Shown piece after piece: positions 5,882 to 57,893 of a stretch of 64,000 nt of DNA (positions are counted from its first letter, which is position 1; each line of letters starts with the position of its first letter). The notes beneath the pieces were generated by a model that did not search any database, was not told the DNA's origin, and saw only the letters and a list, made by a program, of their open reading frames with translations. The position numbers were made by a program, and so were the translations under genes. Source of the DNA: Affinundibacterium nitidum (GTDB taxonomy: Bacteria; Pseudomonadota; Gammaproteobacteria; Burkholderiales; Burkholderiaceae_D). The DNA lies in the NCBI RefSeq assembly GCF_014284155.1, contig NZ_JACOFZ010000002.1, forward strand, positions 406,711 through 470,710, written 5' to 3'.

Positions 5882-5882
5882 C

Positions 5883-9413: not shown

Positions 9414-9416
9414 TTA

Positions 9417-9956: not shown

Positions 9957-11014
9957 TTGCCCAAACCACCCATTTTCTTATTGACCTGTTCTTTCGTGAG
10001 TTCGTTGAATGTGTCGGCAATGGCATTAGGCGTGATTGTGCGGTAATCATCCACGCTGTCCACTTGAACGCATCCTTCGTCATTGCGATAGAGCGCGTGG
10101 AAGCGAACATGATCTTCTTTGCCTTTATCCATCAGCAGATCAAACCACTTGAGCAACACATAATCATGCGTTGCTAGGATGATTTGCTGACCGTTGCGTG
10201 ATAGTTCCAGCAGAATCTCGACCAATAGCCTCATCAGCTTGGGGTTCAAGTTGGTTTCGGGTTCATCCCAAAACAGCGGACCACTGACTCCGGGCTGAAT
10301 CGCGCCGGTCTCTAGTAGCCGAGCGAGCATTCCCGCCTTGCGAAACCCTTCTGCCATGGAATTGGCGGAATATTCGGTATTTTCGGTTTTGAAGGTAACC
10401 TTGCCGCCGCCGTAGAAAACAAATCGTCCACCACAGACTTGTTCGATCTCCGCCATCGCCCATTTCGATTTTTCACGCAAATTTTCCGGGCGGATTTCCG
10501 GAAGATCGAGCAACAGGCAGACGTCTTGGTATGACTGGTCGAACGAAAGTCCGTACTTCTCGTAAAGGCTATTGAAACCTTTCATGAAAGACAGCACTTC
10601 TTTGGTCGGAATGAAAACGGCCTCGTTCTGAAATTTCTCATAATGAGTCCGACTCTGGATAGCAAGTGTCCTAGAGTTATTAAAGAATGTCGTCGAACAT
10701 TTCTGCCCTTGGAAAAAACGAGCAGTAAAATTGGCCTGCTCAGTCGCCCCTTGACGATGCAATTTACCGAGCTTGTCATCCAGTGGCATGAAAAGACGTA
10801 GTACTTTGGTAGTAAGTGCAGTTGCAAGCTCTTCGTCATTAAGATCCGACTTATTCTTGAACAGAGGAGCACCAGCACACAAAGCATAGGCCGCCTTTAG
10901 TACATGGGTTTTCCCTGTGCCGTTCTCGCCGACGATTATGTTAATCTTGGCAGAGAACGTGATGTCCAGCTTTTCAAAGCCGGTAAAATTGGTGAGTTCT
11001 AATTTTTCTAGCAT
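9953..11014 (-). CDS. RecF/SMC-like AAA ATPase embedded in the BREX operon
   Basis: 353-residue ABC/SMC-type ATPase of the AAA_21/AAA_15 type. Walker A GENGTGKT is at residues 29-36, a signature-like SANSMAEGFRKAGML lies in the C-terminal half, Walker B with D-loop GPLFWDEPETNLNP is near 244-257, and the H-switch is in ILATHDYVLL. It has no TOPRIM domain, so it is not an OLD nuclease by itself. It is placed between brxC and pglX, 13 bp after brxC, and overlaps the following nuclease-like gene by 4 bp. Pairs of such an ATPase with a nuclease recur in phage defence (for example Septu-, PARIS- and retron-type ATPase/effector pairs); the role here is inferred by that analogy. Confidence 0.85.
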   Translation of the reverse strand: MLEKLELTNFTGFEKLDITFSAKINIIVGENGTGKTHVLKAAYALCAGAPLFKNKSDLNDEELATALTTKVLRLFMPLDDKLGKLHRQGATEQANFTARFFQGQKCSTTFFNNSRTLAIQSRTHYEKFQNEAVFIPTKEVLSFMKGFNSLYEKYGLSFDQSYQDVCLLLDLPEIRPENLREKSKWAMAEIEQVCGGRFVFYGGGKVTFKTENTEYSANSMAEGFRKAGMLARLLETGAIQPGVSGPLFWDEPETNLNPKLMRLLVEILLELSRNGQQIILATHDYVLLKWFDLLMDKGKEDHVRFHALYRNDEGCVQVDSVDDYRTITPNAIADTFNELTKEQVNKKMGGLGK

Positions 11015-11027
11015 TGGAAATCTCTTC

Positions 11028-14000
11028 TCATACCTGTACGCGGTTGCCGGCCTGAATCTCTTTCAGCCAGGCTTCACGCTGTTGTTTGAGGTACTCGTCC
11101 AACTCAGCCTCGTTGGCCAACCAGGGCTTTGGATACCCGATCTTGATGGTGCGCGCTGGCACCAAGCGAGGCTCAGCAACGACAGACGTGGGCGCAGTTG
11201 CCTGTGGCTTACCGCCTTCCACTGGCGGAGTGGTGTCGTTGGGAATGTTCGGGGGCAGCGCAACGGGTTTTGGCTTGGCCAAGCCTTCCAGTTGCAACAA
11301 CAACTGTGGATAGCGTTCATCTTCAAAGTGACGTAACTGATCGCGGATCATGGCGATCCGTTTCTGACCTTGCAGCACTTGCCCCGCTTCGATAAAAGGC
11401 TTTGAAAGTCTGGCTTGGTCGTCTGGATTTATGGTGGCGTATTCGTCGGTGGCTTGAAGACGCAATCCAAGCTCATCCAGTCGGTTGGCTGCGGTTGCCT
11501 TTTCGCTGGCTAGTTGATTAGCGATACTCTGCTGCAACGCATCCAGTTGTGGCTTGGTTTGTTGCAGTCGATTGCCTTGCCATGGGCTTTTATCGACCAA
11601 CAGGGCCTGCACAATTTCAACTTCAGTCGCGGGAACGTAGGCGAAGTTATCCTCTTGTTCAGCAACGAGTTGGCGAGCTTGATCAAAAATAGCCTTTTGC
11701 GGGCTTTTCATGAAGCGGCGCAGCGGGTCAACCAGTTTTTCCTTGGTGTCCAGCAGTGCATCTTCTGCTCGGGCAAGATCGGTCAGGAACCAGTTGACGT
11801 TCTTCTCGGATACTTCTTTCAAAGTGACCAGAACGGCATCCAATACATTCAAGAATGGGTACAGGGCTTGTTGAGCGTTCAGCTCGACCAGCTCAATTTC
11901 CAGATCCTTGATGGCATCGATCGTCTCGCGAGCCAATGCCCGAGCCTCGTTACTAGCGGCAGGCTTGTCGAAGAAGTCGGCAAAGAATTCTTTGAGTGTG
12001 CGTACTTGTGAGGCCGTGAACTCCACCTGTGGCTCCAGGACCAGTGTGGCGTGAGCGTTGGTGTTGCGAAGGCTACGCTCCAGAGCCTCTGCCTCCAAGG
12101 TATTGCTGTCTTGACGGATCTCGACCTTGCCACGCGCACTGAGCAGGGCCAGGTTGCACAATATAGCCGCGTAGTACCAACCGTAGTTCTTGCGCTCGAA
12201 GCGCTCGATCAAGCTCTTGACCGTGGTACGCACGCCGCTTCGCGCATTGCTCTGAATGAAGGCGAGCAGTTCTTGCTCCGCCTCAGTCAGACTGGTGGCG
12301 TCGTTGGCCAGCAAACCGTCTTCGGCCATACGCAGATGCTTGCCCACATCTGCTTCATTGAACGGCAGATCGCGCAACATACGTAGATTCGGGTAAGTGA
12401 TCTGGATCAGATGATCGAAACCTTTGAGCACCCGTGTCTGACCATCCTCGCTATTGACATCAATATCTGCTGCGTTGATGATCAGTGCAGCCTTGCCAAG
12501 CAGCGCTTTCGCCCGCACTTGCAGGTCGCTTAGACGTTCCGTGTTCTGGAATCCTTTGGCGTCCAGAATTCGTTTGACTGCCTCTTGCTGCGTGTTGCTG
12601 TTCTGACGGATATATTTCTCCGTGCGCTTGTGCATGGTCAGGTCTTGCATGAAGCGTGCATCGGCAGGAAGCACCACACGCAACTCGTCCCGGCCCATGC
12701 TTTGCATGCGCTGCAGAGCAATGTTATCAAAGTTATCAGACAGCGGTGTAATGATATGAATCGCAAGTTCGTACTCCCGGCTCACTGCCCGCTCATCCAT
12801 TTTTCGGGTGTACGCATAGTCCTGGCCGTTACTGTGCCGGATCTTGCGCTGTTTGATCACACCGTCGAAGAGCAGCGTCTCCAGCTCCTTAATTATATCG
12901 GCTGTTTCGACATCCGTATTCTTAATCTCTTCTTCTACGTCCTTTTCCTCATCGGTCAGGTATTCGTATAGATCACCACTACGCTGAATGTAGGTCTGTT
13001 GCTCCAACAAATTCAGCGCCGCTTCCAGCTTTTTACGCTGGGCAGGAACGTCTTCGCCAAAGCGTTCCAACATCAGGACACTCAGATTGCGCAGTGTGGC
13101 CTTGAATTCTTTAACGTACTTGACCAAAAAAAGCGCCTTGAGAACGCGGATTGCATAGGGATCACCCAGGTTTCGCTCTGCCGTGTTGATAGCACTCTGT
13201 ATGCCACTTTTTAGTGCCCCACGAATGCCTTCGAACATGCGGTCGAACGTGGCTAATTGCCCAACTGGTTCGTTATCGATGGCAATGGCTACTTCGCGGA
13301 AAACGCCAAGCATGGAGCGTTCACCGACAGAGCTGGCCTTGCCTTCAAATCCGTTGTGGACAGAGATGCCACGAATGGCCGATTGAAACAGCGGGAACTG
13401 ATACGGTACAAAGGGGTAGGCATAAATGAAGTGATCTTCATCCCGGAAGTTTTGGTAAGCTTGGCCACCGTCAGCAAAGTCAAACAGGGTTTTGAAGTTG
13501 TTGACCTGTTGGGCGTAGGTTTCTTTTAAAAGCTTTGAGCCAATTTCGTTCTTAGTAAGCAGCCGTTTCTGGATCACCTCGGCGACATCTGCGCTTGTGA
13601 GCTTAAGACGATTGGCAAAACGCGCTTGAATTTTCGTGAAGTCATTGCTTTGCTGCTTGCTCAAGTCGCCCAGCACAGAATTCATATCCTCCTGCGCAGT
13701 AACAATAATCCACGCGCGTCCCTGACACTTCGTGGCCAAGCTCTCAGCTACGGTTTGCAGATTGGTCATAAGCTTGGTGTTCTCGGCTATGTACTGCCCA
13801 ACTTCATCAACAAAAAAATTGAGCCGGAAGTTTGCAGGTTTTTTATCCAGCCATGCTTTGACTTGATTGCCGAAGTCCTCTATCGAAACACTATACTGGC
13901 TTCGGTACTTGTCGAGAATTCCTTTCGTTAGTGCTGGATCTTCACCAGTTATTTCAGCATATGCCTTAGCAATATTGCCGGCTTCCAGCAAAGCTTGCTC

Positions 14001-14579
14001 ACGCCCTCGCTCCCAAGCTTTATTTGCATGACGTAGATATGCATCTTTGAACGCATCAAACTGGTTACGGCCGTCAAGATCTCGCTCAAATTGTGCGATG
14101 TACCCCTGCTTGCCGAAATATCCGCACATCTCATTGAACACTTTCACAAACACAGAAAGAAGGGCATCGACTTGTGTCTTACTAATAATGTCCGCTTTTT
14201 GATCAATGTTAAACAAAATGCTCTTAGATGGGATAGCGATCGCCCTTTTTAATGAGGCTCGAAGGAGCTCATCTCCCATTGGGATCTTGGCAAGAAAAAT
14301 TTCTAATGCTTGTTCCCCACCGACCTCACGGTTTTCAAGTAACACCGCAAGCATTTTCAGCAGATGTGATTTACCAGATCCAAAAAAGCCGGATACCCAT
14401 ACACCGTTCGCGCTGTGGTAATCGTTGTACGCATCAAGAAAGTGCTCTAACCGTTTAGCAACTTCATTTGTTAGTACATATTCACTCAATTCATTGTGTA
14501 AGCTTGATTCATCGTCAGCTTTAATCACACCCTCTATCGGGCGGCTCACAGGATTTAGAAATATACGATTAAGTTCCAA
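11028..14579 (-). CDS. brxC: BREX ATPase BrxC
   Basis: 1183-residue P-loop ATPase (DUF6079-type, the large BREX ATPase also called PglY-like). Walker A GFFGSGKS is at residues 64-71 in the typical N-terminal position following a short stretch; FFVDEVGQYI further on fits a Walker B region. The length matches type I BrxC. It is required for BREX defence and methylation and probably powers or regulates assembly of the complex. It begins 11 bp after the brxB stop and has a higher GC content by eye than brxA/brxB and brxL/pglZ, so the operon is compositionally mosaic. Confidence 0.95.
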   Translation of the reverse strand: MELNRIFLNPVSRPIEGVIKADDESSLHNELSEYVLTNEVAKRLEHFLDAYNDYHSANGVWVSGFFGSGKSHLLKMLAVLLENREVGGEQALEIFLAKIPMGDELLRASLKRAIAIPSKSILFNIDQKADIISKTQVDALLSVFVKVFNEMCGYFGKQGYIAQFERDLDGRNQFDAFKDAYLRHANKAWERGREQALLEAGNIAKAYAEITGEDPALTKGILDKYRSQYSVSIEDFGNQVKAWLDKKPANFRLNFFVDEVGQYIAENTKLMTNLQTVAESLATKCQGRAWIIVTAQEDMNSVLGDLSKQQSNDFTKIQARFANRLKLTSADVAEVIQKRLLTKNEIGSKLLKETYAQQVNNFKTLFDFADGGQAYQNFRDEDHFIYAYPFVPYQFPLFQSAIRGISVHNGFEGKASSVGERSMLGVFREVAIAIDNEPVGQLATFDRMFEGIRGALKSGIQSAINTAERNLGDPYAIRVLKALFLVKYVKEFKATLRNLSVLMLERFGEDVPAQRKKLEAALNLLEQQTYIQRSGDLYEYLTDEEKDVEEEIKNTDVETADIIKELETLLFDGVIKQRKIRHSNGQDYAYTRKMDERAVSREYELAIHIITPLSDNFDNIALQRMQSMGRDELRVVLPADARFMQDLTMHKRTEKYIRQNSNTQQEAVKRILDAKGFQNTERLSDLQVRAKALLGKAALIINAADIDVNSEDGQTRVLKGFDHLIQITYPNLRMLRDLPFNEADVGKHLRMAEDGLLANDATSLTEAEQELLAFIQSNARSGVRTTVKSLIERFERKNYGWYYAAILCNLALLSARGKVEIRQDSNTLEAEALERSLRNTNAHATLVLEPQVEFTASQVRTLKEFFADFFDKPAASNEARALARETIDAIKDLEIELVELNAQQALYPFLNVLDAVLVTLKEVSEKNVNWFLTDLARAEDALLDTKEKLVDPLRRFMKSPQKAIFDQARQLVAEQEDNFAYVPATEVEIVQALLVDKSPWQGNRLQQTKPQLDALQQSIANQLASEKATAANRLDELGLRLQATDEYATINPDDQARLSKPFIEAGQVLQGQKRIAMIRDQLRHFEDERYPQLLLQLEGLAKPKPVALPPNIPNDTTPPVEGGKPQATAPTSVVAEPRLVPARTIKIGYPKPWLANEAELDEYLKQQREAWLKEIQAGNRVQV

Positions 14580-14590
14580 CTTTTTTCCTC

Positions 14591-15256
14591 TCAGATCTGA
14601 GTGTCAAATATGTTAAATGCTCGATAATATTTGTCATCGTGAAGCATACCAAAAAGCTCAAGCGAAGCACCCTGCTCTAGCGAGTAGCGATACTCCCCTG
14701 GAAAAAACATCACAGTAGGTTTTTCTTTGGCTGTGCTTTGCAAATTATTGAGTACATTATGCGAACGGATGTATGGAAAAACCTCCCCGATCCCAGATAA
14801 AAAAAACACGTCATATTCAGTCTGATCGATGCGTTCTCTGATCGCGGGAATTAAATAATCCTCAATGCTCAGAACATTTTGTAGCAACTCGAGAAGACTA
14901 TCTTTCTCATTTTCAGTTTCGATGGACAGTATTTCGTCCCACAAATTTGTGTCTGGACTACTACCTTCTCGAGCCTTTAGGAGGTCTACACACAAATCAT
15001 AGAGGTTGATTTCCAAAACCTTGACTCCCCGCCCCCCCAAGCAATCAATTGCGCCACTGGCAAGGGTAGTAGTGAGCTGCTGTATTATCCTCTGCATTTC
15101 AAACGTTTCTGATGCTTTGAACTCGCAAATATAAAATGGCAAATCGTTGTTCAGTCCTCGCATCTGAAGAAACCTTTGGCTGCTTATCACTTTAACTAAG
15201 TGATCAAAACGAACCGAGATCTGCTGCTGGCTTATTTTTTTATTCATGCTAACCAT
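14591..15256 (-). CDS. brxB: BREX protein BrxB (DUF1788)
   Basis: 221-residue DUF1788 protein, a conserved small BREX subunit of unknown biochemical activity. Family-like features seen are the N-terminal RFDHLVKVISSQRFL segment and the C-terminal TVMFFPGEYR segment. The first ATG is at 15256 and overlaps the end of brxA by 13 bp; an ATG three codons later (15247) is an alternative start. It sits between brxA and brxC as in all type I BREX operons. Confidence 0.93.
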   Translation of the reverse strand: MVSMNKKISQQQISVRFDHLVKVISSQRFLQMRGLNNDLPFYICEFKASETFEMQRIIQQLTTTLASGAIDCLGGRGVKVLEINLYDLCVDLLKAREGSSPDTNLWDEILSIETENEKDSLLELLQNVLSIEDYLIPAIRERIDQTEYDVFFLSGIGEVFPYIRSHNVLNNLQSTAKEKPTVMFFPGEYRYSLEQGASLELFGMLHDDKYYRAFNIFDTQI

Positions 15257-15861
15257 CGCTGAATATCGTTGTCGGTTGCAGGAAATACTTGAAGATCACT
15301 AATGTCATTCCGCGACAACACTTGCGCTAATCTGGGGCTTACCATCGCTGCTTGAATATGCAGATTGTCATCAACCAAATTTGCCTCCCGCAACATTCTG
15401 AACAAATTTTGTCGCAATTTTTTACTCGTCGAGGGAGCAATGCTATCAAGCTCCTCATGCCACAGAGACTTCGAATTCAGAAACGCGTCAAAATCACTAA
15501 GTGGCAAGTGTCGCCTCAAAACCAAATAATGCTCGCGCACTACTTCAGTTGCAAAGTCACGGATAAAGGAGTAACGCCTACAAACCGCAACCCAAAGTAA
15601 GTATCCTAGATCGCGAAAGTTGAGATAAACAAGCTCTTCGAGCTCTTCCTGAGTCAAAAATTCGAGCCGAGCGACGACCTCCTTGCTTATGCGCAGTGAA
15701 GCTGTAGACGTTCTAACTTGAAGTAAATTCTTTTCGCGAACCATGTCCCTGACTTTTTTCCAATCACCCAAGTCTAGATAAATTTCAACAATACTCGGAG
15801 TCTCAGCGATGAAAAGACCACCTGTCGTAAATGACAGCCGATAACGTTGATCATTGGCCAT
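15244..15861 (-). CDS. brxA: BREX protein BrxA (DUF1819)
   Basis: DUF1819 protein of about 205 residues; the family member that has been studied is a small helical DNA-binding protein. The frame is open up to 15891, but the ATG at 15861 is preceded by a GAGGG ribosome site at good spacing and gives the usual N-terminus (MANDQRYRLSFTTGGL). The start lies within the last codons of the HTH gene, so the two are translationally coupled. BrxA is followed by brxB with a 13-bp overlap. Confidence 0.92.
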   Translation of the reverse strand: MANDQRYRLSFTTGGLFIAETPSIVEIYLDLGDWKKVRDMVREKNLLQVRTSTASLRISKEVVARLEFLTQEELEELVYLNFRDLGYLLWVAVCRRYSFIRDFATEVVREHYLVLRRHLPLSDFDAFLNSKSLWHEELDSIAPSTSKKLRQNLFRMLREANLVDDNLHIQAAMVSPRLAQVLSRNDISDLQVFPATDNDIQRWLA

Positions 15862-16069
15862 TTTCATCGCCCTCGGACGCGTCATCGCCATGAATAATTT
15901 GTTGCTTTATCCAAGCGTCAATGTCAACGAGCGAAAATCGCCAGCTTCCTCCCACTTTGAAGGCTGGTATTTGTTTCGCGGCCGCTAACCGATAAATTGT
16001 GCGCTCCGTAACTTTTAAGTAGTCTGCGACTTGCTTTATGGTCAAAATCGCATTTTCATTCACACTCAT
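15851..16069 (-). CDS. Small excisionase/MerR-like helix-turn-helix protein at head of BREX operon
   Basis: 72-residue HTH_17-type DNA-binding protein. The order ILTIKQVADYLKVTERTIYRL, then IPAFKVGGSWRF and a terminal IDAWI is the standard excisionase-like winged-helix pattern. It is the first gene of the operon and its 3' end overlaps the brxA start. It could regulate the BREX promoter, acting in place of or together with a WYL-type BrxR. It could also be a relic of a mobile element, but the tight overlap with brxA argues for a functional operon gene. Confidence 0.8.
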   Translation of the reverse strand: MSVNENAILTIKQVADYLKVTERTIYRLAAAKQIPAFKVGGSWRFSLVDIDAWIKQQIIHGDDASEGDENGQ

Positions 16070-22077: not shown

Positions 22078-22187
22078 GATCAGAGCGATCACTTCATCAC
22101 GTAAACCATGGAACTAATTCGCTTTTCTAGTAGTGACGACGGTACCGCTCTAACTAAACCTTGGCCTCAATCGCTTTCATCAAGACT

Positions 22188-23270
22188 ATGCAAACTACAA
22201 CCACGATCATATCGAGAGATCACCGCGAGCAGTTGAGTCTACAGGAACAAATCGACATTGGTATTTTCCGCAGTCGCAAGCGTCCCGACGAAGAGCATCG
22301 ATTTATCGTGGCTTGCGATGCGCGACCGCTGTTGGCACTTTTTGATGCAGCAGCACTCGGGAGCCGCGTTTATGAACTAATGACCATCGCTCGTCCAGCC
22401 GATATCCTGTCATATCTACATTTAACGATGATTGATGTGGATGAAGGAGTACTGAACTTTGTCAGAAACAGAATCAAAGCAAAGGAGTTCTTCAAAGAGG
22501 TTAACTTTGAGAATGGGATTGCCTTCTTAGACTTTGACCAATGCTTTACGCTAATGGAAGACGACAATGAAGACTTCGAAAGAATCTGGCTCTCCCATCG
22601 TCGAAGCACCTATTGGAGCAAAAAACTCCTCACCCTCCTCTCGCTAACCAAAGAGGTGCAACAAAGCATTCGACAAATCGATGATTTCTTACTCCAACAT
22701 GAAATTAAGTTGATCGACCATGGACAACATCATCGCGATCTCATTCCCAAAATCGATCGCCTTTCACTCTTAGAGAATAAAGCCTACAGGAAGTCGACGT
22801 TACCGGAGCCACTATTTACGACAATTGCGCAACTCATTCAGCAAGACGATATCAGATCAGTGTCATGTCCATTTACAGACTACCCGTTATGGCGCCTACT
22901 AGTTGAAGAACAAATTCGACGCGCACAGAAAAGTGGCCTGCCAGCCAAAGAAGCTTTTTTCTTAAGCGGGCCAGATGGTTACAAAATGAACCTCACTGGC
23001 GCAGATACTCGTTACTACCCAAATGAACCTGAGGACTGGGGTGGCATAGTACACGTACCCTATGAAGGAGCAACGGGAGCAGACCTCTTTATCAAACCAG
23101 ATTGGCACAACTTCCGTAAAGATCAAGCGGGAGAGGATGGCAGTCTATCCAACGCCTTGTTCGGCAAGCCTTGCCGGTACATGTTGTCCGATAAGGATTA
23201 TGGTGAATTAGGTTGCGCGAGCAGGAGAGAAGTCGGAGATTGGGTTCTTTATCGATGTAATAAAGGCTAA
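22188..23270 (+). CDS. Hypothetical protein, paralogue B1
   Basis: About 360 residues, no family recognised. It is paralogous to the minus-strand gene at 29953-31011: both have a DARPL-ALFDAA-GSRVYELM segment, RPAD--YLYL, a conserved SCP-TDY-LWR-LVEEQ-RRAQ, WGG-VHV and a C-terminal LFIKPDWHNFR-----GG SL ... GDW-LY. No signal or membrane helix. The open frame begins at a TTG at 22161; the ATG at 22188 is preferred. The conserved DWHNFR and SCPLTDY blocks look like active-site or binding segments, but I cannot name a reaction. Confidence 0.7.
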   Translation: MQTTTTIISRDHREQLSLQEQIDIGIFRSRKRPDEEHRFIVACDARPLLALFDAAALGSRVYELMTIARPADILSYLHLTMIDVDEGVLNFVRNRIKAKEFFKEVNFENGIAFLDFDQCFTLMEDDNEDFERIWLSHRRSTYWSKKLLTLLSLTKEVQQSIRQIDDFLLQHEIKLIDHGQHHRDLIPKIDRLSLLENKAYRKSTLPEPLFTTIAQLIQQDDIRSVSCPFTDYPLWRLLVEEQIRRAQKSGLPAKEAFFLSGPDGYKMNLTGADTRYYPNEPEDWGGIVHVPYEGATGADLFIKPDWHNFRKDQAGEDGSLSNALFGKPCRYMLSDKDYGELGCASRREVGDWVLYRCNKG

Positions 23271-29952: not shown

Positions 29953-31011
29953 TCAAGGGGAGGACGAAAATACTAGTCTAACTTTGTTCTCATAGAGGAT
30001 CCAGTCACCTATTTCAGTCCGAATTGCACATTCAAGTTCGCCAAAATCCTCTTTTGTAAGCATGTAATGCAAGGCACTTGTATATGATGCTTGGTGAAGA
30101 CTGCCACCTATCCCTGCAAATTCTCGCCGGAAATTGTGCCAATCTGGTTTGATAAAGAGTTCAGAGGAAAACACCCCTTCATCGAGAACATGCACATCCC
30201 CCCCCCAATCCGCCGTGCCCCAATCAGTTCCCCCCCCACAACCACTTAAAAAGAGAGCATTAGAAGGTTCTTGACCAAGTGATTGTGCTCGACGCATTTG
30301 CTCTTCGACTAAAAAACGCCAAAGTGCATAATCAGTCAATGGGCAAGAAACTGAATTTACCTTATTCTCTTTTACTAGCGAGACAATCGTTTGATATAGG
30401 TCTAACGGCAGACTGGTCGTGAGGCTTATCGTATTCTCGCGTTCACTGATGCGCTCGACTTTCACTAAAAAATCTCTACGATGTTTGTGATCGTCAATCA
30501 AACTTATTTCATTCTTGAGCAATAAGTCATCTACCAGGCGCAAACGGTGCTGTACTCTCTTTGTTAAATCAAGCAGCGCAAGCAATTTGAGATCCCAAAA
30601 ATCGCTCTCTCGATGTTCGAGCCAACATCTGCAGAAAAGCGCCGGCCCATCATCATTCGAGCTAAAACAACGATCAAATTCTAGGAACTTCATTCCACCA
30701 AGAAATGGCATAACATCGAATCTGGCACGCGGCCCGAAGAAATTTTGAACATGTCTCAATATGCTCGGATCTATGTCTACAAAATCGAGATACAAGTAAT
30801 GAAATAAATCTGCGGGGCGGGAAATTTTCATTAGTTCATATACTCTGCTACCACAAATTGCTGCGTCAAATAGCGCAGCCAATGGCCGTGCATTCAGACC
30901 TAGGACAAACGGACGATTATCGTCATATGGACTGAGTTGAAGGAGCTCTTCTGCCACGAGAGAATTTCGCTCTTCCGCGTTAATCAAGAATTTAGTCGTC
31001 ATCATTTTCAT
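29953..31011 (-). CDS. Hypothetical protein, paralogue B2
   Basis: 352 residues, paralogous to the gene at 22188 over almost the entire length (see blocks ARPLAALFDAA-CGSRVYELMKISRPAD, SCPLTDYALWRFLVEEQMRRAQ, LFIKPDWHNFR and GDWILY). It is convergent with the 439-aa gene. The insertion GCGGGTDWGTADWGGD near 265 is glycine-rich and unlike B1. No known family. Two copies in one cluster in opposite orientation suggest local duplication or an inverted segment. Confidence 0.7.
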   Translation of the reverse strand: MKMMTTKFLINAEERNSLVAEELLQLSPYDDNRPFVLGLNARPLAALFDAAICGSRVYELMKISRPADLFHYLYLDFVDIDPSILRHVQNFFGPRARFDVMPFLGGMKFLEFDRCFSSNDDGPALFCRCWLEHRESDFWDLKLLALLDLTKRVQHRLRLVDDLLLKNEISLIDDHKHRRDFLVKVERISERENTISLTTSLPLDLYQTIVSLVKENKVNSVSCPLTDYALWRFLVEEQMRRAQSLGQEPSNALFLSGCGGGTDWGTADWGGDVHVLDEGVFSSELFIKPDWHNFRREFAGIGGSLHQASYTSALHYMLTKEDFGELECAIRTEIGDWILYENKVRLVFSSSP

Positions 31012-31786: not shown

Positions 31787-32110
31787 ATGAGGGATCCTAT
31801 CCGCATGTTTGTGACTATTTGTGAAATTGAAAACCCTAACCTCTATAACAAATTGCTTCCAATTCACAACCGTCAGACGCGGTCAAGAATGCTGAAAAAA
31901 TTTGCAAGCTTAGGGGTATCGCTTGAGGAGTCAGGGATGGCAATCAACGAATTAATATTGATAACTTCTGAAAAATCTAATGCGAATGTAAGCCCTGACT
32001 TAGCACAAACTGTAGAGCAAGAAGAGCCAGGGAATCTATTTCAAGATCATAAAAATATTCCACCACTGTCTATCGATTTGCGTTCGCTAGGTTTCAGCTT
32101 TGATTTTTAA
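31787..32110 (+). CDS. Small ParR/StbB-like protein
   Basis: 107 residues. The N-terminal 45 residues (IRMFVTICEIENPNLYNKLLPI followed by RQTRSRMLKKFASLGVSLEE) show the pattern of plasmid stability adaptors: a short strand, LY-x2-L, and arginines followed by a helix ending in LA-x-G. The same pattern occurs in the protein at 36822, next to the ParM-like gene. The C-terminal half is acidic and of low complexity with a short FSFDF terminus, which could contact a filament. It is followed by the palindrome array at 32199-32646, a possible binding site. Similarity is weak and motif-based. Confidence 0.5.
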   Translation: MRDPIRMFVTICEIENPNLYNKLLPIHNRQTRSRMLKKFASLGVSLEESGMAINELILITSEKSNANVSPDLAQTVEQEEPGNLFQDHKNIPPLSIDLRSLGFSFDF

Positions 32111-32198
32111 TGCGGAAAAATAGCGCGAATTTTTCTTATTAGTGAATTGCCAATTAATGGACTTTCTCTAATTCAGCAGGTACTAATTGACAGATTGA

Positions 32199-32234
32199 CA
32201 ACCAAAAAGTCCACCAAAATGGACTTTGCAATTG
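32199..32234. repeat. Imperfect 36-bp palindrome, type 1 (array unit 1)
   Basis: 15-bp arms around CCAAAA; inner arms AAAGTCCA/TGGACTTT match perfectly. Starts 61 bp before the perfect palindrome at 32260, the same spacing as in unit 2. Confidence 0.8.
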
Positions 32235-32259
32235 TTAAATTGAAAAATTATCGCAATAA

Positions 32260-32295
32260 CAACTCAAAAGTCTACCCGGGTAGACTTTTGAGTTG
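32260..32295. repeat. Perfect 36-bp palindrome, type 2 (array unit 1)
   Basis: All 18 positions pair around the centre CCCGGG: CAACTCAAAAGTCTACCC and its complement. There is no loop, so as DNA it is a dyad rather than a usual hairpin terminator. Confidence 0.9.
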
Positions 32296-32484
32296 AGAAA
32301 TTATTAACTTCTATCTCATTCTCGTCAATTAGACGTAAGCGTTTTGGTGTTGACGCGCATCCAAAATTGACCAGATGAATGCGTGTCATCAGTAAGAAAA
32401 TCTTTTATTTTTTGATATTCTTCCATTGGACTCCCCTCAATTCACTAGACATTTAATAGGGTCAAAAACAAAAAAGGAGACTCC

Positions 32485-32535
32485 ATGAGAAAAGGTACTG
32501 TTGGTTCTACAAAAAGTCCACGGGATGGATTTTGA
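32485..32535 (+). CDS. 16-residue open frame (possible leader peptide)
   Basis: ATG with AAGGAG 7 bases upstream, encoding MRKGTVGSTKSPRDGF. It lies between the two palindrome units and its last codons overlap a degenerate palindrome. It may be a leader peptide or the stump of a lost gene. Weak support apart from the ribosome site. Confidence 0.3.
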   Translation: MRKGTVGSTKSPRDGF

Positions 32536-32549
32536 AATTGACAAAATAA

Positions 32550-32585
32550 CAATTCAAAAGTCCACCAAAATGGACTTTGTAATTG
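32550..32585. repeat. Imperfect 36-bp palindrome, type 1 (array unit 2)
   Basis: Same structure as the repeat at 32199 (inner arms AAAGTCCA/TGGACTTT around CCAAAA), 351 bp downstream of it. Just before it, at 32512-32533, is a degenerate half-copy AAAAGTCCA-CGGGA-TGGATTTT that overlaps a 16-codon frame. Confidence 0.8.
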
Positions 32586-32610
32586 ATAAATTAAAAAGTT
32601 AACATAAAAA

Positions 32611-32646
32611 CAATCCAAAAGTCCACCCGGGTGGACTTTTGGATTG
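32611..32646. repeat. Perfect 36-bp palindrome, type 2 (array unit 2)
   Basis: All 18 positions pair around CCCGGG: CAATCCAAAAGTCCACCC and its complement. Relative to the copy at 32260, changes in one arm are matched by compensating changes in the other arm, which shows selection for symmetry. Downstream of both type 2 copies a further direct repeat TCGTCAATTAG-CGTAA-CG occurs. Confidence 0.9.
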
Positions 32647-32938
32647 GTGAATTAACAATAATTATCGTCAATTAGGCGTAAACGTGTTGGCGCACACTCT
32701 TTTTTCAGAAGGAGATCCACAGGTTGACATAAGCAGCTTGTGTGAGACGATAGTGTTTCTTCAACGAACAGCCGAGTAGAGAAAATATTGGAATTCGCAC
32801 AAGAACAAGTAGCGAAATTGGTTAATTTGTTGAAGCAATCAAAACGATGTCTAAGTGATGCTGTATCTCCGTACCTGAACCACAAGCCTAACTATGCAGT
32901 TTTACTGGGCAAATTGAGCTTACTTTAGAGGGTTTAAT

Positions 32939-33376
32939 ATGAAATCTAAATCGGCTATGTTGATCGATGTTATTCTGAAGATTCCAGGAAAAAAACAGGT
33001 CACGGTTATTTCCATTGGTGAAGCGCAGACCTTTGATATTGCCGCAAACGGTGACATTGGCTATGACAAAGAACATGCTTTGGAATTGCGCAGAGCTATT
33101 GGTTTGGGTATTTCCTCACCAGTGGGCGCCATTATCGTCCGACAATTCATCCCGAATTCAGAAGAATTGGTGACATTTCCAAATGGAAAGCAGGGAATGA
33201 TGCCGCGGAAGTCAATCTATGCGATAGCTACAGGAAACGAAAAGTTCGAATTTTTGAGTGCAGAAGATGTGGAGTTGGCGATGACTACAGATTCTGAAAC
33301 TGGTGAACGTATCGATCCCGAACCGTATGTTATCTATCAAGATATTCAGGCATTTTCCGATGTAACCATGAATTGA
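32939..33376 (+). CDS. Hypothetical protein of the plasmid-like element
   Basis: 145 residues, acidic C-terminus, no membrane helix. AGAGGG precedes the ATG. Residues 5-35 (a run of beta strands, ILKIPGKKQVTVISIGEAQTFDI) and GPVGAIIVR-like SPVGAIIVRQF suggest a compact beta-rich domain. It stands between the palindrome array and the recombinase gene; a TCTACCCGGGTAGA palindrome begins 14 bp after its stop. Function unknown; likely element-specific. Confidence 0.6.
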   Translation: MKSKSAMLIDVILKIPGKKQVTVISIGEAQTFDIAANGDIGYDKEHALELRRAIGLGISSPVGAIIVRQFIPNSEELVTFPNGKQGMMPRKSIYAIATGNEKFEFLSAEDVELAMTTDSETGERIDPEPYVIYQDIQAFSDVTMN

Positions 33377-33390
33377 AGAAACCTCAGAAG

Positions 33391-33404
33391 TCTACCCGGG
33401 TAGA
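33391..33404. repeat. Short palindrome TCTACCCGGGTAGA
   Basis: Core of the type 2 palindrome, 14 bp perfect, directly after the 145-aa gene. It is followed by CCTACC-N7-GGTAGG at 33420-33438. Confidence 0.7.
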
Positions 33405-33496
33405 ATTGGTCCTGATGAACCTACCCGAACTCGGTAGGCGTCAACTAAGGTCACAGACTGAAAAGAATGTAGTCATCACAAAAAATAATAAAAAGA

Positions 33497-33524
33497 GTTC
33501 CAGTCCCCCCGGGGGGACTAGAAC
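33497..33524. terminator. 28-bp palindrome between convergent genes, probable bidirectional terminator
   Basis: GTTCCAGTCCCCCC and GGGGGGACTAGAAC pair with one mismatch. A-rich DNA precedes it (33478-33494), giving a U-tract on the minus strand after the recombinase gene. It shares the GTCC-CC-GG-GGAC core with the palindrome family, so a regulatory role cannot be excluded. Confidence 0.5.
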
Positions 33525-33599: not shown

Positions 33600-34757
33600 T
33601 TATCGCAAGAGATCAATGAATTGCAAACGTTTATAGAGGTAGCTACGAGAACACCCCAATTCTTCGGCAGCTTTCATTTTATTGCCACCGCAGTCTTTTA
33701 TTTTGGCAAGAATTTCATCGTCCTTAAGATCTTGGGCGGTTTTGACTGCCATGGCTCGATAAGAACCAATGTAAGCATTTGCTTTACTTTCCCTTGAGTG
33801 GCCTGCGGCTTCAGTCACAGATTGCCGCGCGAATCTCAGCATGTCTGGCGCTGGTGCTTCGCCACCGCGGACAGGGCTATCTGTTTTTGCGATATGTCTA
33901 AAAAGATCATTCAAGTATTGGTGCCTTAGGCCATGCGCAGTGACTCCATATTTTCCCTCTTTCTGAAGACCATGCTTTACTAAGGTGTTATAAAACTTAG
34001 CCTTCCACCGTTTTAATGAAAATTCAAGGGGAATCATGGTATTCGATTTTCCATTTACAAATTTCTTTGCGAGTTCTAGTACCTCAATTTGTTTTTCAAC
34101 ATTGTGCATTTCCACTTTTCGCCTTCTTCCGCCTTTCGTTCCATTTTCGATCGTCACGTAATAGGATCCACCTTCCAAGGTTAGAGCATTGAAAGGCCTG
34201 AGTAGTAACGCTTCCTCTACCCTTAACCCGAACATAACGATTAGTGATAATTGCATGCCGATTATTACGTTATCTTTCGCAATTTGTTCAATCACCTCCT
34301 CAACATTAATTCCGGCGGCTGTCCAAGACTTATCGTCAAACGTGATTCCAGTACGCTTTTTTAGCGTGTTCAAAATTGGGTATTGACTCGACTTCTTTAC
34401 GACATTCGGACGTTTCGTCCACGATGCCAACGTACCTAAGTACGTAATCTTATTTTCGATTGTTCCTTTCTCTTGCCCCTCATCAATCCATTTCTTAATC
34501 AAAAATTCGACGTGCTTTTCTCTTATGCTGTAGACCGAGGTGATCTCAAATTTTGCTTTTATTAATTCTGTAAGCATCGCAAGTAGATTCACGACTCTTG
34601 ATGATTGGGTCTTAATGCCCAACGGCGCTGCGGAATGCCGTGTGCGACTATACGGTTTACTTAAATTCGCCGAAAACAGAGTATTGAGCTCCTGTTTTAT
34701 GCCTTTTGGTAAATCCGCATTCGCAACATACGTATGAAATTGCAGCATCAGACTCAT
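33600..34757 (-). CDS. Tyrosine recombinase (integrase) with C-terminal Fis-like HTH
   Basis: 385 residues. Core-binding domain about 50-130; catalytic domain with R179 (GLRVEEALLL), H275-x2-R278 (HGLRHQY), H320 (AGHSRESKANAY) and the nucleophile Y329 or Y333. The last 35 residues (GGNKMKAAEELGCSRSYLYKRL) form an extra HTH of the Fis/AraC-like type, an unusual appendix for an integrase. AAGGA precedes the ATG. A 47-codon gene ends 24 bp upstream, same strand. Probably mobilises the 32-38 kb element. The att sites are not identified. Confidence 0.88.
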   Translation of the reverse strand: MSLMLQFHTYVANADLPKGIKQELNTLFSANLSKPYSRTRHSAAPLGIKTQSSRVVNLLAMLTELIKAKFEITSVYSIREKHVEFLIKKWIDEGQEKGTIENKITYLGTLASWTKRPNVVKKSSQYPILNTLKKRTGITFDDKSWTAAGINVEEVIEQIAKDNVIIGMQLSLIVMFGLRVEEALLLRPFNALTLEGGSYYVTIENGTKGGRRRKVEMHNVEKQIEVLELAKKFVNGKSNTMIPLEFSLKRWKAKFYNTLVKHGLQKEGKYGVTAHGLRHQYLNDLFRHIAKTDSPVRGGEAPAPDMLRFARQSVTEAAGHSRESKANAYIGSYRAMAVKTAQDLKDDEILAKIKDCGGNKMKAAEELGCSRSYLYKRLQFIDLLR

Positions 34758-35772: not shown

Positions 35773-36792
35773 ATGTTAATTCCAGCTGTTGGACTCGATG
35801 TAGGATTTGGGTATGTAAAAGTGGCGAAACGATCTCCACAAAATGCCAACCTCACGCAGTTCGAATCTTTCCCCTCCCTCGCGCCACGTCGAATTAGATC
35901 AGATGCAAAAATTCATGACCCGAGCGTTATCGAACGGATCTATCACGTCAACGTAAACGGGGTCGAGTTTAGTGTTGGCCCTGATGTAAAACACATCGTT
36001 GGCGGCGCGTCAGGTTCCGGCCGCGCGCTCAATGATGATTATCCGAGGACAGTCAATTACGAGGCGCTTTTTCTCGGTGGACTAGCTCTTCTCGAAGCTA
36101 CGGAGATTGGTGTTCTGGTTATGGGGCTTCCGGTACATACCATTCGCGCGCACAAGGAATTCGTCACAACAAAGTTCTGTGGCGAATTTGAAGTGGCTGA
36201 CAAAGTAGTTAAAGTCAACCACGTACATGTAATTCCACAACCAATCGGCGCAATCCTCCACTACGGTGAATCCGTCAACCATCGAATTACCATGGAGGAC
36301 AATTTTCTTGTCAACGATTTTGGCTACGGTACGACTGACTGGGTCACAACTCGAGGCATGAAGACCATCGAAAGCCGCAGTGGCGGAACACCTATTGGTG
36401 GGTCAACGATTCTTAAGTCAATCGCAGACCTGATATCGCAAGACATCGGTAAGAAATATGATGAGATTGAGCGCATCGATGATGCAATCATCTACCAAAA
36501 AGATCTAAAAATTTTTGGCTATACCTACACACCGACCGATCTGAAAGCTTACTTGAAAAGCTCAAAATATATCGCTGACGATTGCGCGAATAAAATCAAA
36601 TCTTCCGTAGGAGATGGCAGTGACCTTAACTGCATTTTAAATGTCGGTGGTGGTTCACTTTATTTCGGCGAAAGTATCGAAGAAGTGTTTGGGGGAGTGA
36701 AAATCGAAACCTTAGCAAACCCTCGTTTTTGCGTTGCTTCTGGCTTACTCGAGTACGGTGAATCACAAATGCGAAAACAAAATATGACTTAA
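35773..36792 (+). CDS. ParM/StbA-like actin-family plasmid segregation protein
   Basis: 339 residues with the three actin-fold nucleotide motifs: phosphate 1 GLDVGFGYVKVA (7-18), phosphate 2 NDFGYGTTDW (near 182-191) and adenosine motif LNVGGGSLYF (near 289-298). It belongs with ParM/StbA and PRTRC-D type proteins that polymerise to push plasmid copies apart. It is followed after 29 bp by a small ParR-like gene, the standard two-gene order. Its presence on a chromosome indicates an integrated plasmid or an ICE-like element. Confidence 0.85.
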   Translation: MLIPAVGLDVGFGYVKVAKRSPQNANLTQFESFPSLAPRRIRSDAKIHDPSVIERIYHVNVNGVEFSVGPDVKHIVGGASGSGRALNDDYPRTVNYEALFLGGLALLEATEIGVLVMGLPVHTIRAHKEFVTTKFCGEFEVADKVVKVNHVHVIPQPIGAILHYGESVNHRITMEDNFLVNDFGYGTTDWVTTRGMKTIESRSGGTPIGGSTILKSIADLISQDIGKKYDEIERIDDAIIYQKDLKIFGYTYTPTDLKAYLKSSKYIADDCANKIKSSVGDGSDLNCILNVGGGSLYFGESIEEVFGGVKIETLANPRFCVASGLLEYGESQMRKQNMT

Positions 36793-36821: not shown

Positions 36822-37115
36822 ATGGTTAAAGAGCTCAATTTGCGACTCAAAATTGTTGAAGAAGACTATCCCTTGCTTTATCAATTTTTAGTTTCTGAAA
36901 CCAACCAGATGCGCAGAACGCGAAAACTTTACACGCTCGCAGAAAATGCGTTACGAACACTACCTCAAGGAGAAGGAATAGCTGTAAAAATAAACACAAG
37001 GAACATACCAATCATCCCTCAACATGATCCGACACAACCAGAGACTTCGACGGTAACCGAAAGTGATCGACCGAAGCGAGGGTCATTTGCGGATTCATTT
37101 CAATTTGATGAGTAA
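36822..37115 (+). CDS. ParR/StbB-like adaptor of the ParM-like protein
   Basis: 97 residues. N-terminal half (LNLRLKIVEEDYPLLYQFLV ... RRTRKLYTLAENALRTL) resembles plasmid stability adaptors that bind a centromere; the C-terminus is proline/acid-rich and ends FADSFQFDE, a likely filament-binding tail. Positioned directly after the parM-like gene. It resembles the protein at 31787 in both halves (LY motif, arginine cluster, F-x-F-D tail). Confidence 0.65.
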   Translation: MVKELNLRLKIVEEDYPLLYQFLVSETNQMRRTRKLYTLAENALRTLPQGEGIAVKINTRNIPIIPQHDPTQPETSTVTESDRPKRGSFADSFQFDE

Positions 37116-37123
37116 AGGGCTAT

Positions 37124-37444
37124 GTGCGATACAGAATGATGAGGAAACTTATTGCGATGTGTCGCCTCAGTCTAAATTCCACCCATTCGTCATATACGCA
37201 AATAAACAGGGTTCTTAACTACTATGTCGATGAAGATCAAATAGAGTACGCAGCGCGATGTAAGTTATTTTTCTCTTCTAAAGGCATCGATGTACTGAAT
37301 GCCTTTGAAGTGACTAGAAGCGAACCGACATCTCCCCACATAAAAAACAAGAGGATCATTTTTTTCTCAACAATTCTGTGCTCGTCTTTCAAGCAGCAAG
37401 AAATTTTCGTTCATTTGACACGAGATCGATTTGTGAAAAACTAA
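37124..37444 (+). CDS. Hypothetical protein downstream of ParMR
   Basis: 106 residues, first possible start GTG at 37124 with later ATGs at 37136 and 37139. No recognised domain. Its 3' end and the following 50 bp (coding for HLTRDRFVKN and beyond) recur in degenerate form at 58370-58440, which suggests a real gene of the element with a remnant elsewhere. Confidence 0.4.
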   Translation: MRYRMMRKLIAMCRLSLNSTHSSYTQINRVLNYYVDEDQIEYAARCKLFFSSKGIDVLNAFEVTRSEPTSPHIKNKRIIFFSTILCSSFKQQEIFVHLTRDRFVKN

Positions 37445-37529
37445 GCCTGTCAGATCGCAAAATAAAATGTGTACGCGACCTCGACATTTACATAGTCAAC
37501 ACGAATTAATCTTTATATTGGAGAATCAA

Positions 37530-43757: not shown

Positions 43758-44468
43758 TTTCCCATTTCCTTATATGTTGTTGGATTATTGGTGATCGCAC
43801 ACCTCGAACTCTTGTGCCAGATACTGCTTGAGTACGACTTGGCGATCTGAACCATTATCCGATGGGAATATTAAAATTTCATGACTTTTATTATTTTATT
43901 TATGATATTTATCCTGAGAAATCTGGTGGACTTTTCTGATTAAAAGAGAGTGAAGGTACTCATGTAACTTTTCGCTACGGACATCTTAAGCTTCAGTGGA
44001 CTACGAATCGTCTTAGGAACGTTAAAACACCCTTCTGATCGTTAAAAGTAGGTTCATCGGACTTCCCCACATTTAGCGAACGGTTAATCATGTCAAAACT
44101 AAAAAGGTTGACGCGATGAAAAAAGTGCTCACGATCCGTCCAAAAGTCTACCCGGGTAGACTTCGTCGGTCGAAAAAGCATTGAAGTTTGCGATTAGTAG
44201 GCTTCCTGCCCCCTGTTCCGGTCAAGTTCAAAAAATGTTTCTCTACCCTAATGTGCGGTAGGAACCACGATAGGCGGTTGGATCGGTTCCAAAATCGAGA
44301 CTGCTATTTACAACACTGGAGAAAATGCAGTGCCCAAAACGCTAAATAGAGTGAAACCAAAATTTTTAATTGAACTTGAAAATCAAAAGTACGACAACGC
44401 ACAGATTGGCGTACCGCTCTTACCTAATCATTGAAGAGACAAAAAAGAAAATCGAGAGCACCGAAGAA
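43758..44468. other. Intergenic region with isolated palindrome
   Basis: About 700 bp with no supported gene. It includes the palindrome at 44144-44163. Frames in it lack ribosome sites. Confidence 0.35.
44144..44163. repeat. Isolated palindrome AAGTCTACCCGGGTAGACTT
   Basis: 20-bp perfect palindrome identical to the core of the array element at 32260, found about 12 kb outside the array and about 325 bp upstream of the fatty acid hydroxylase gene. Confidence 0.85.
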
Positions 44469-46821: not shown

Positions 46822-47337
46822 CCTTAGATAAAGTTTCGCACAAGAATATGCCAAATTTAGCCAACATTAATTTTTAAAGTTGCTATCTACATAAACTTCG
46901 TACAAGCCTATTGCAAATTCATGCTCAGTTTTTTTGGGTACTTTTGGTGCGTCAATCGTGTGTGGACTGCGGTGATTTTTGATTGCAAAAGCCACTCAAA
47001 TTTTCGTCTCATATGACATTTTCTAGAAGCAGTAATCTAGCTATTGTTTGGCCAGTCGTAATAAGAATTTGCTTTTTTGTGAGGAAACTCGCATCGTTTA
47101 GAGGGTGTAGTGCCCCAAATTAGTCATTGCATTTAGTCTTAAACGTAGTCGCTGTATTCCGCCCCAAGAATGGCAAACGGAATTCTTATTACAAACAGTG
47201 ACTTACTTAGTTAAACACTGAGGTGACGAAGACATTGATGAATATTGGCTTTGCGGGGTGTTTCAAAGACTTTGTCGCACTGAAGACAATTTTGAACACA
47301 CAAAACCGAACACACAAAGCAAGGGAAAACTCGCCGT
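46822..47337. repeat. Left copy of a ~500-bp inverted repeat flanking the integron
   Basis: The reverse complement of this stretch is alignable by eye along most of its length with 57390-57893. Shared blocks include GCCCCAAATTAGTC-TTGCATT, TAGTCTTAAACGTAG, GAAGACATTGATGAATATT and GTAGATAGCAA. The inner end joins the intI pseudogene directly. No long frame. Part of the inner 110 bp may itself be decayed intI coding sequence. Confidence 0.7.
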
Positions 47338-54424: not shown

Positions 54425-55783
54425 TCAACAACTTGCCGTTGCAACGAGGTTCGATTGACTAGCAAGAATGGCGGCCTGTTTTTGTATCCCCTCAATTATC
54501 GACTCGGCAAGGGATGGAGGGAAGTTTGCGGGCAATCTTCCATACACAGACTCAACAACTTTTGGGACCTGTCCAAGTACCTCTTCGATTATTTCTTCAG
54601 CATTGGTCGCGCCTAGGCCTACCTGTTTTGCCATACTAGACCAGTGTCGGCGTTGGATACGCTGGAGATGATAGTAGTTGGTGCTTCCACGGACTGCCAT
54701 AGCTAGTTTAGCGTCTTGTGGTGAAATCATATTGCGTCCGGTACCAATAACTGGGTGTGCAGATAACACGTCATAAATTGGCGTTGCCCGATATCGAGCT
54801 TTCGGCAGTAAGAAAATACTGAAATTTTTTGCGTGTCCATCGGTTGCCGCGAGCAACCAAAAGATGATTTGGGTTTTAAAGAAATTTCGTCTGTCTTTTG
54901 CCGCCCTTTCGGAGCCCAACAATAGCCGCATAATTGCGTCAATCCCTGGTCCGCCATCTCTCTGATATTTATTGAGAGGTGAACATCCCGAGGCTTGACA
55001 CATATCTTCTTGAGGAAGTCGAACAATCCAACTTTTATCGTCTGAATACTTCCGGTCAAATCTTTCTACAGCGAGCACTTTTTGTTCTTCAAACTGCAGA
55101 ATCTCTGTCTTCGCAATCGGCAGATCAAATTCTTCAAGGATGATAGAACAGAGCCATTCATTTTCGACCGAGGTACTCATGTCCGCACGCATACTTCCGA
55201 CCAATCCGAGCGGCAATTTCAATATATGTGTGGTTGGTGTACTTCCAATTGGTAAGTACCAACGTCCTTGATGGTATAGAAGAGCGTTTTTTTCCTGAGC
55301 ACCAGCAATGGAAATGCGGAAATCTTGATCATCATCTGTGTGTCCAAACCCATTTGAATTGGTAGTATCACGCAATAATTTAGCTATCGCCCGTTCATCT
55401 AATGGACGCTTACGGATGGAAAACAAGTCTTCGGGCTGCATATCTTCAGGGAGTATTTGAGCTGCGCCCACGCAATCTCTACCTATTACCCCAAGCAGTT
55501 GAAATGGAGATGTGCCACCTGTATTGTGACGCATGGCGAGCCGACGTCGAATGATGTCGCTATCTGGCAATAAATTATCGAAATAGTTTATGACTACCTG
55601 ACCAGAATAGGCATCATTGTTTGCCGTAAATGGCATCGACAATGACAATGGCCGTCCCCCCTCATCCTCTAGCCACTCATTAAAGTAAGTGAAAGTGGAA
55701 GAATTGGCTTTATTTCTCCATTGACCAACAGGAATACCGTTATGCCAAACATTTAGCGTATTGTGCTTTGCTCTGCTTGTCAT
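54425..55783 (-). CDS. hipA: HipA serine/threonine kinase toxin
   Basis: 452 residues. HipA N-terminal domain NVWHNGIPVGQW ... LSLSMP; P-loop-like SIAGAQEKNALLY; catalytic DGHAKNFSIF (D and N of the kinase loop) and a YDVLSAHP activation-loop segment. HipA phosphorylates glutamyl-tRNA synthetase in the known case, causing growth arrest. All kinase motifs appear intact. It follows hipB by 3 bp on the minus strand. Confidence 0.93.
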   Translation of the reverse strand: MTSRAKHNTLNVWHNGIPVGQWRNKANSSTFTYFNEWLEDEGGRPLSLSMPFTANNDAYSGQVVINYFDNLLPDSDIIRRRLAMRHNTGGTSPFQLLGVIGRDCVGAAQILPEDMQPEDLFSIRKRPLDERAIAKLLRDTTNSNGFGHTDDDQDFRISIAGAQEKNALLYHQGRWYLPIGSTPTTHILKLPLGLVGSMRADMSTSVENEWLCSIILEEFDLPIAKTEILQFEEQKVLAVERFDRKYSDDKSWIVRLPQEDMCQASGCSPLNKYQRDGGPGIDAIMRLLLGSERAAKDRRNFFKTQIIFWLLAATDGHAKNFSIFLLPKARYRATPIYDVLSAHPVIGTGRNMISPQDAKLAMAVRGSTNYYHLQRIQRRHWSSMAKQVGLGATNAEEIIEEVLGQVPKVVESVYGRLPANFPPSLAESIIEGIQKQAAILASQSNLVATASC

Positions 55784-57389: not shown

Positions 57390-57893
57390 TCCGGTTCTAC
57401 ATTGCTTTGTGTGTTCGGATTTATGTGTCTAAAACTGTCTTCAGTACGAAAAACTCTTTGAAAATCCCAGAAGGGTCAATATTCATCAATGTCTTCACCA
57501 CCTCACTCTTTAACTTAGTAATTCACTGTTTCTATTAAAAATTCTGCTTACCATTATTAGTGCGGAATACAGTGGCTACGTTTAAGACTAAATGCAACGA
57601 CTAATTTGGGGCATTGCGCTCTCTAAAAGATGCTATTTTCCTCGCAAAAAAATTCTTGTAACGACAGGCCAACCAATAACCAGATTTACGCACCCAGAAA
57701 ATGTCATATTTGACGTAATTTCATATGACTTTCAAACTTGAAAGTCACCGCAGTCTTGACACAATCGACACACCAAAACCAAAAAAAATACTTGGCATAA
57801 ATTTGGAATACCCTTGAACGAAATCTTTGTAGATAGCAATTTCGAAAAATGACTTTGGCCAGATTTAGCATAAATTTGTACGAAATTTATCAC
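57390..57893. repeat. Right copy of the ~500-bp inverted repeat flanking the integron
   Basis: Alignable in reverse complement with 46822-47337. Its inner end abuts the IS3 remnant. Both copies face each other about 10 kb apart around the cassette array and hipBA. No long frame. Confidence 0.7.

Follow-up and report, generated by a model that had tools for sequence, protein, structure and literature searches.

The block between positions 32,185 and 32,690 of the window, the 64,000-nucleotide stretch of Affinundibacterium nitidum DNA analysed here, carries four related 36-bp sites arranged in two duplicated units, and these are interpreted, with a probability of about 0.45, as hairpins of the intrinsic-terminator class that possibly belong to two tandem small-RNA genes on the minus strand. 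In a weaker variant of this interpretation the hairpins would form a terminator cluster between parR2 and the gene for a 145-aa protein, with no small RNA. The main rival is an array bound by a ParR protein. The features of the region are listed in Table 1.

Table 1 Features of the hairpin array and its surroundings (positions in the window)
Feature	Position	Strand	Basis or remark
parR2, orphan ParR-family gene, 107 aa, no adjoining ParM	31787..32110	+	HMM E 8.3e-9
Unit 1 of duplicated block	32185..32347	-	blastn 77 % to 32536-32690; D1 and D3 repeats
Type 1 site, unit 1	32199..32234		8-bp stem AAAGTCCA/TGGACTTT, 6-nt loop
Type 2 site, unit 1	32260..32295		Perfect 36-bp palindrome, T-type core
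Promoter-like TTGACG-17-AATAAT, unit 1	32300..32328	-	10/12 matches; start predicted at 32293, within the hairpin by 2 nt from its 5' end
Degenerate site copy directly ahead of unit 2	32511..32533	+	Site comparison
Unit 2 of duplicated block	32536..32690	-	Repeat search, blastn
Type 1 site, unit 2	32550..32585		Repeat search, site comparison
Type 2 site, unit 2	32611..32646		Perfect 36-bp palindrome, C-type core; top terminator-type score (minus), d = 41.2
Promoter-like TTTACG-16-TATTGT, weak, unit 2	32655..32682	-	8/12 matches; predicted start 32648
145-aa ORF, relatives not found in searches made	32939..33376	+	Database and profile searches; low-confidence model
Fifth family copy	33383..33407		Core 33388-33407 with one mismatch in 20 bp; 6 bases past the stop of the 145-aa ORF
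Terminator-type hairpin past integrase gene, also with CCCGGG centre	33497..33524	-	d = 32.8
Tyrosine recombinase (Integrase_1), Fis-type HTH	33600..34757	-	Domain match
parM, actin-like, PRTRC_D type	35773..36792	+	TIGR03739, 218.9 bits (cut-off 214.8)
parR1, ParM-adjacent ParR	36822..37115	+	HMM E 4.4e-12
Isolated far copy	44141..44163		Core 44144-44163, exact 20 bp, unrelated flanks, between divergent genes

Layout and symmetry of the array

The sites lie 61 bp apart inside each pair and 351 bp apart from unit to unit, and a repeat search returned exactly the coordinates that the earlier note had given for two duplicated units. Repeat D1 is 119 nt long with 81 % identity at an offset of 351 bp, and the homologous block recovered by blastn extends beyond it, while a tandem-repeat search identified the hairpin pair itself as a 61-bp duplication. 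The type 1 core is identical between units at 20 of 20 positions and the spacer at 18 of 25. A 16-codon ORF behind AAGGAG (32484-32534) runs into the degenerate palindrome ahead of unit 2, and may be the 5' part of a gene that the duplication interrupted. The 578-kb contig holding the window also has two tRNA genes, and the location is therefore probably chromosomal.

The array had been described as one of perfect 36-bp palindromes, which holds for the two type 2 sites (32260 and 32611), each with a CCCGGG centre, and not for the type 1 sites, in which CCAAAA replaces this centre and an 8-bp stem with a 6-nt loop is flanked by partly mismatched outer arms. No other loop-free palindrome of the window is as long as the two type 2 sites, and about 1e-6 perfect 36-bp palindromes would be expected in 64 kb where two are observed. 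The left arms of the two sites differ at three positions, and each of these changes is matched by a compensating one in the right arm (probability 1/816 that the positions coincide by chance), as had been noticed earlier and taken to indicate selection on symmetry. Over the six family copies arm pairing peaks in the proposed register (75 %, versus 25-44 % after sliding), and covariation shows no excess over shuffles, the number of cells changed on both sides being 5 against a shuffle mean of 3.5, with 132 of 500 shuffles reaching 5. The symmetry is striking, but selection on it is not proven, as hairpin selection or template switching, which is reported to make the arms of inverted repeats uniform (PMC8604942, PMC7202029), would also compensate the arms.

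Several further features of the window were recorded. A BREX defence cluster occupies 1509-15891, about 16 kb from the array, with BrxC identified by NCBIfam and the other BREX genes presumed from their translations. Similar genes of no known family lie in opposite orientation at 22161-23270 and 29953-31011, spanning about 9 kb, with an inverted 66-bp stretch that is 82 % identical. An inverted repeat of approximately 500 bp (46827-47330 and 57394-57891, 78 % identity) surrounds about 10 kb in which most genes are small; the genes enclosed include one at 54425-55783 which we take to be HipA-like. A 58-bp direct repeat (37404-37461 and 58361-58418, 86 % identity) has its copies 21 kb apart.

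Hairpins, terminator scores and putative minus-strand RNAs

Both strands of both units fold better than 200 of 200 shuffles (z -6.0 to -7.9). Terminators were scored with a formula, and promoters against a consensus. For the sites at 32611, 32260, 32199 and 32550 the terminator scores are 41.2, 9.8, 9.1 and -1.0 on the minus strand and 7.1, -5.5, -20.9 and -14.4 on the plus strand, so that a GC-rich hairpin with a U-run scores above 0 at three of four sites on the former and at one of four on the latter. This minus-strand terminator polarity, seen at all four hairpins, is a reading absent from the earlier note. The score of 41.2 (32611-32646) is the maximum of the window, in which 17 scores exceed 0; three shuffled windows had chance maxima of 9.1, 24.0 and 34.8, with 6, 3 and 9 scores above 0. 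A separate terminator pattern scan picks two of the four sites, both of them as minus-strand hairpins. All but one of the four sites have short U-runs (4-5), and the copies at 33388 and 44144 have a low terminator score or none. No minus-strand ORF of 70 aa or more is a candidate for a gene ending at the array, and parR2, which precedes it, is on the plus strand.

On the minus strand unit 1 presents, in order, a promoter region, the type 2 hairpin, a linker and the type 1 hairpin with its U-run. Promoter matches as good as the 10/12 of unit 1 occur three times on the minus strand of the 64 kb (about 6e-5 per strand-position). The limits of the block fit the proposed transcription unit, including an upstream stretch of 30 nt that is 87 % identical between units. 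Each duplicated block of approximately 160 bp (32185-32347 and 32536-32690) would thus be a small minus-strand transcription unit, with transcription starting near 32293 in unit 1 or near 32648 in unit 2. The RNA would carry at its 5' end a 16-bp stem-loop followed by an AU-rich linker, and the second hairpin with its U-run would terminate it at about 90 nt. An older 61-bp tandem duplication would have produced the hairpin pair, and a later single duplication of the whole block the second unit. This reading is favoured by the compensated type 2 differences, the folding, the score polarity, the position of the unit 1 promoter and the recurrence of the A/T-flanked stem elsewhere; production of this RNA, and a regulatory role for it, are inferred.

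Several observations stand against this reading. The promoter match of unit 2 is weaker and placed differently from that of unit 1, and the strong minus-strand type 2 terminator of unit 2 would shorten the RNA to about 40 nt. Terminator-like and promoter-like matches are frequent in this region, the former numbering 23 (17.9 expected, sd 4.1) and the latter 27 (28.6 expected, hence no enrichment). The flanking genes lie on the plus strand, on which the hairpins have the lower terminator scores. The short U-runs, and a six-copy covariation within the shuffle range, also count against it. The block was found in no relative searched, and is hence without independent conservation. A search of Rfam found no family at the gathering score, which rules out a known RNA family at that level; the best sub-threshold rows were microRNA precursor families (best E 3.3e-5, 34.9 bits, with a gathering score of 74).

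The array resembles intrinsic terminators, among them bidirectional ones that have A- and T-tracts, in its GC-containing stem between A- and T-tracts, in its terminator scores, and in the presence of the same stem in such hairpins of unrelated contigs. It differs from them in the loop-free perfect palindrome at two of four sites, in its nested duplication, and in that the strand with its better scores runs opposite to the flanking genes, which are on the plus strand. A second comparison is with the general class of tandemly duplicated small-RNA genes in bacteria: each of the paralogous units resembles them in having a promoter-like element, a 5' stem-loop, an AU-rich linker and a 3' hairpin with a U-run, whereas the lack of an Rfam family and of relatives found, together with the weak promoter of unit 2, sets the array apart from them.

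Copies of the core in this and other genomes

The earlier note had proposed looking for the palindrome in the genome and on related plasmids. The genome has further copies at 33388 and 44144 and a degenerate one near 32511; among plasmid records the array had no counterpart. A genome-wide scan allowing up to two mismatches located the 20-bp core at four places (32268, 32619, 33388 and 44144), all inside 12 kb, which rules out a genome-wide REP element. The copy at 33388 sits just past the 145-aa gene and that at 44144 before the gene at 44370.

Conservation of the array in relatives, on which the earlier interpretation had been made in part to depend, was not found: the core had no match (up to one mismatch) in the DNA of any of 59 relatives (0/59), and a looser pattern, also with up to one mismatch, matched 4 of 393 family genomes including its own, the other three having one single hairpin each. 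In two genomes of the same family the stem occurs in the same A/T-flanked hairpin form. Phage records gave one match of about 35 bp (E 0.05). The exact core was present in seven stretches of the species collection, five of them on five contigs of one unrelated MAG; these were rejected as relatives of the array, their A/T flanks and mixed gene contexts indicating terminator-type hairpins instead.

The exact core had no match in the viral collection. A 22-base stem-plus-flank pattern matched 37 viral contigs once apiece, in a sample that is biased, as the pattern demands A3 and T3, and in which many contigs are near-identical and not independent. In 35 of the 37 the stem is fully paired and, by inspection, one strand carries four or more T's; in 21 of the 37 the loop sequence on one strand is CTTCGG. 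Because the same stem is found in A/T-flanked hairpins elsewhere, it looks like a recurrent terminator stem more than a specific operator.

ParR proteins, the tyrosine recombinase and other explanations

The claim that a ParR-like gene precedes the array was upheld. An HMM of 15 ParM-adjacent ParRs, with the window's own left out, was run against the 412 window ORFs of at least 40 aa, and just two, at 36822 and 31787, passed the inclusion threshold. The ParR set was picked by eye, 30 ParM loci giving 22 with a downstream ORF, of which 16 entered the set (15 once the own ParR is excluded) and L045, L053, L055, L057, L066 and L070 were dropped as unlike ParR. Judged by its sequence, the 31787 product is a genuine ParR homologue. 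ParR matches (E <=0.01) were obtained in 25 of 393 family genomes including its own, and two ParRs only in its own, with a profile that includes both window ParRs and so favours their detection. The most solid new fact is this second ParR without an adjoining ParM, none of the other 392 genomes searched having a second one. The ParR profile had no significant match to solved structures (best E 0.07), and the predicted models are of low confidence (mean pLDDT 46 for ParR2 and 43 for the 145-aa protein). The segment 35773-37115 combines the ParM (TIGR03739 above cut-off) and the ParR (profile) of a type II (ParMRC) locus.

Binding of ParR2 (or ParR1) dimers to AAAAGTCYACC half-sites would make the array a centromere- or operator-like element, an alternative considered rather unlikely. 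In its centromere version the array would serve as parC for a second locus of type II, one that has lost its ParM and uses the ParM about 3 kb off; alternatively, it would be an autoregulatory operator. It is favoured by parR2, which ends 75 bp ahead of the block, by the restriction of the array and of a second ParR each to this genome among those searched, and by the retention of the core at 33388 and 44144 despite differing flanks. Binding of SrpR to fragments carrying two srpC repeats is a further parallel (PMC4489591). Against it, recognition of half-sites leaves the compensated changes of the outer arms unexplained, and the binding of ParR to the array is hypothetical, with a low-confidence model for ParR2. 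Neither ParR nor the tyrosine recombinase close by is linked to the array by any result of this analysis.

Repeats upstream of parM were also compared. Significant, contiguous 11-bp iterons precede parM in the genomes G015 and G013, whereas the upstream region of the window's parM has no repeat beyond shuffles, which also speaks for a ParR-bound array. Among the 19 of 30 fetched ParM loci that entered the test (own included; start of the upstream region set by the longest ORF), 3 beat all shuffles and 16 show no repeat; because only 3 of 19 give a signal, the absence of iterons before the window's parM is weak evidence, and it was withdrawn as proof of a displaced centromere. The array itself does not consist of contiguous short iterons beside parM, its dyads lying 61 and 290 bp apart, unlike those of G015 and G013, and about 3 kb from parM, although with 16 of 19 loci negative this comparison is a weak test. 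On Paraburkholderia plasmids GGGCCAA/TTGGCCC half-sites, direct at 11 bp and inverted, lie just upstream of PRTRC_D genes (L023 6800-7000, L024 5406-5560) and are a candidate parC; these arrays are not beyond shuffles at 11 bp and slightly beyond them at 8 bp in L024 only.

The srpMRC partition locus of SXT/R391, whose srpC comprises four short repeats, direct and inverted, is like the island in combining an actin-like ATPase, a small DNA-binding adaptor and an integrase on a chromosome-capable element; its repeats are upstream of srpM, whereas the island array follows an orphan ParR without ParM (PMC4489591). Chromosome-encoded ParMs, for which cassettes encoding two or more putative ParRs are reported, share with the window a ParM and ParR on a chromosome-like contig; the window ParM differs in being of the PRTRC_D type beside a plasmid-type recombinase, and the available part of that article does not describe a comparable array (PMC12270681).

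Two bolder schemes are jointly considered improbable. In one, a chromosomal island would have an orphan ParR served by a palindromic, centromere-like array of its own, with no ParM in cis, and this ParR would make use of the ParM encoded at the neighbouring locus. In the other, twin small RNAs would pair through a self-complementary core with palindrome-bearing transcripts, and the dispersed palindrome, with copies immediately downstream of the 145-aa gene and ahead of the one at 44370, would be regulator and target at once.

An array of no function, in which template switching perfected the palindrome and nested tandem duplication multiplied it, is likewise improbable. The nested 61-bp and 351-bp duplications and the lack of the array in the relatives searched agree with it, as does the homogenisation of inverted-repeat arms reported for template switching (PMC8604942, PMC7202029). 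It is opposed by the type 1 core, unchanged between units while the adjoining spacer has diverged, and by the 20-bp core retained at 44144 amid unrelated flanks.

The tyrosine recombinase gene, 1 kb from the array, is divergent from parM, and the pair forms a module also present in G013 and G015, with recombinases of 52 % identity. Relatives of the recombinase occur on 172 plasmid records, and in three of four inspected a gene annotated as PRTRC system protein D adjoins it, with a conserved hypothetical gene at the corresponding place in the fourth. A protein search of genome contigs with the recombinase gave no match; another genome search did yield relatives. Sites of such recombinases have inverted arms and a spacer that is usually asymmetric and identical in partner sites. 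The earlier note had named a recombination site among its possibilities, and as a recombination or multimer-resolution site of this enzyme, with a type 2 core and type 1 accessory sites, the array is very unlikely: the fully symmetric type 2 centre would leave sites without direction, the type 1 centre differs, and centre and outer arms vary among copies, even though one family copy is situated 0.2 kb beyond the 3' end of the gene, another lies far off at 44144, and G015 has a repeated perfect palindrome about 0.3 kb downstream of its integrase gene. An integrase-linked palindrome is not general, as G013 and the four plasmids examined out of the 172 records have only shorter or looped hairpins past the integrase and L025 has none.

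The G015 palindrome ACTTTTCCAACGCGTTGGAAAAGT is perfect twice, with one further copy having 2 mismatches and one 5, and G013 has ATTTTTCCACCGCGGTGGAAAAAT with three looser copies (4-5 mismatches). Only a TCCAMC-type half is common to these and the window palindromes, with the T/A-tract polarity reversed, and this is recorded as an observation, not as homology. Around the integrase-ParMR module of G015 the 24-26-bp palindrome occurs at L021 3456, 9367 and 15802 (G015:C2:137456, 143367, 149802), as two perfect copies and one with 2 mismatches; it is perhaps a protein site, its A/T polarity being the reverse of that of a terminator. A parS of a ParB system was rejected for the array, as the window's contig has no ParB_N match. 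Elsewhere in the window the palindrome TGACTTTCAAACTTGAAAGTCA (57726-57747) is close to three ACTTTCAAGCTTGAAAGT-type palindromes of G013 (G013:C33:106247-106669), where a ParB_N match lies about 1 kb away, and palindromes of this kind appear parS-like.

If the array does consist of terminator-class hairpins or small-RNA genes, it would represent a young, element-specific pair of such genes or terminators, and a useful case for the study of hairpin duplication and of the upkeep of arm symmetry. If instead it is bound by ParR, then a ParR and its DNA site would be separable from ParM, which would bear on the fate of partition systems after plasmid-chromosome merger.
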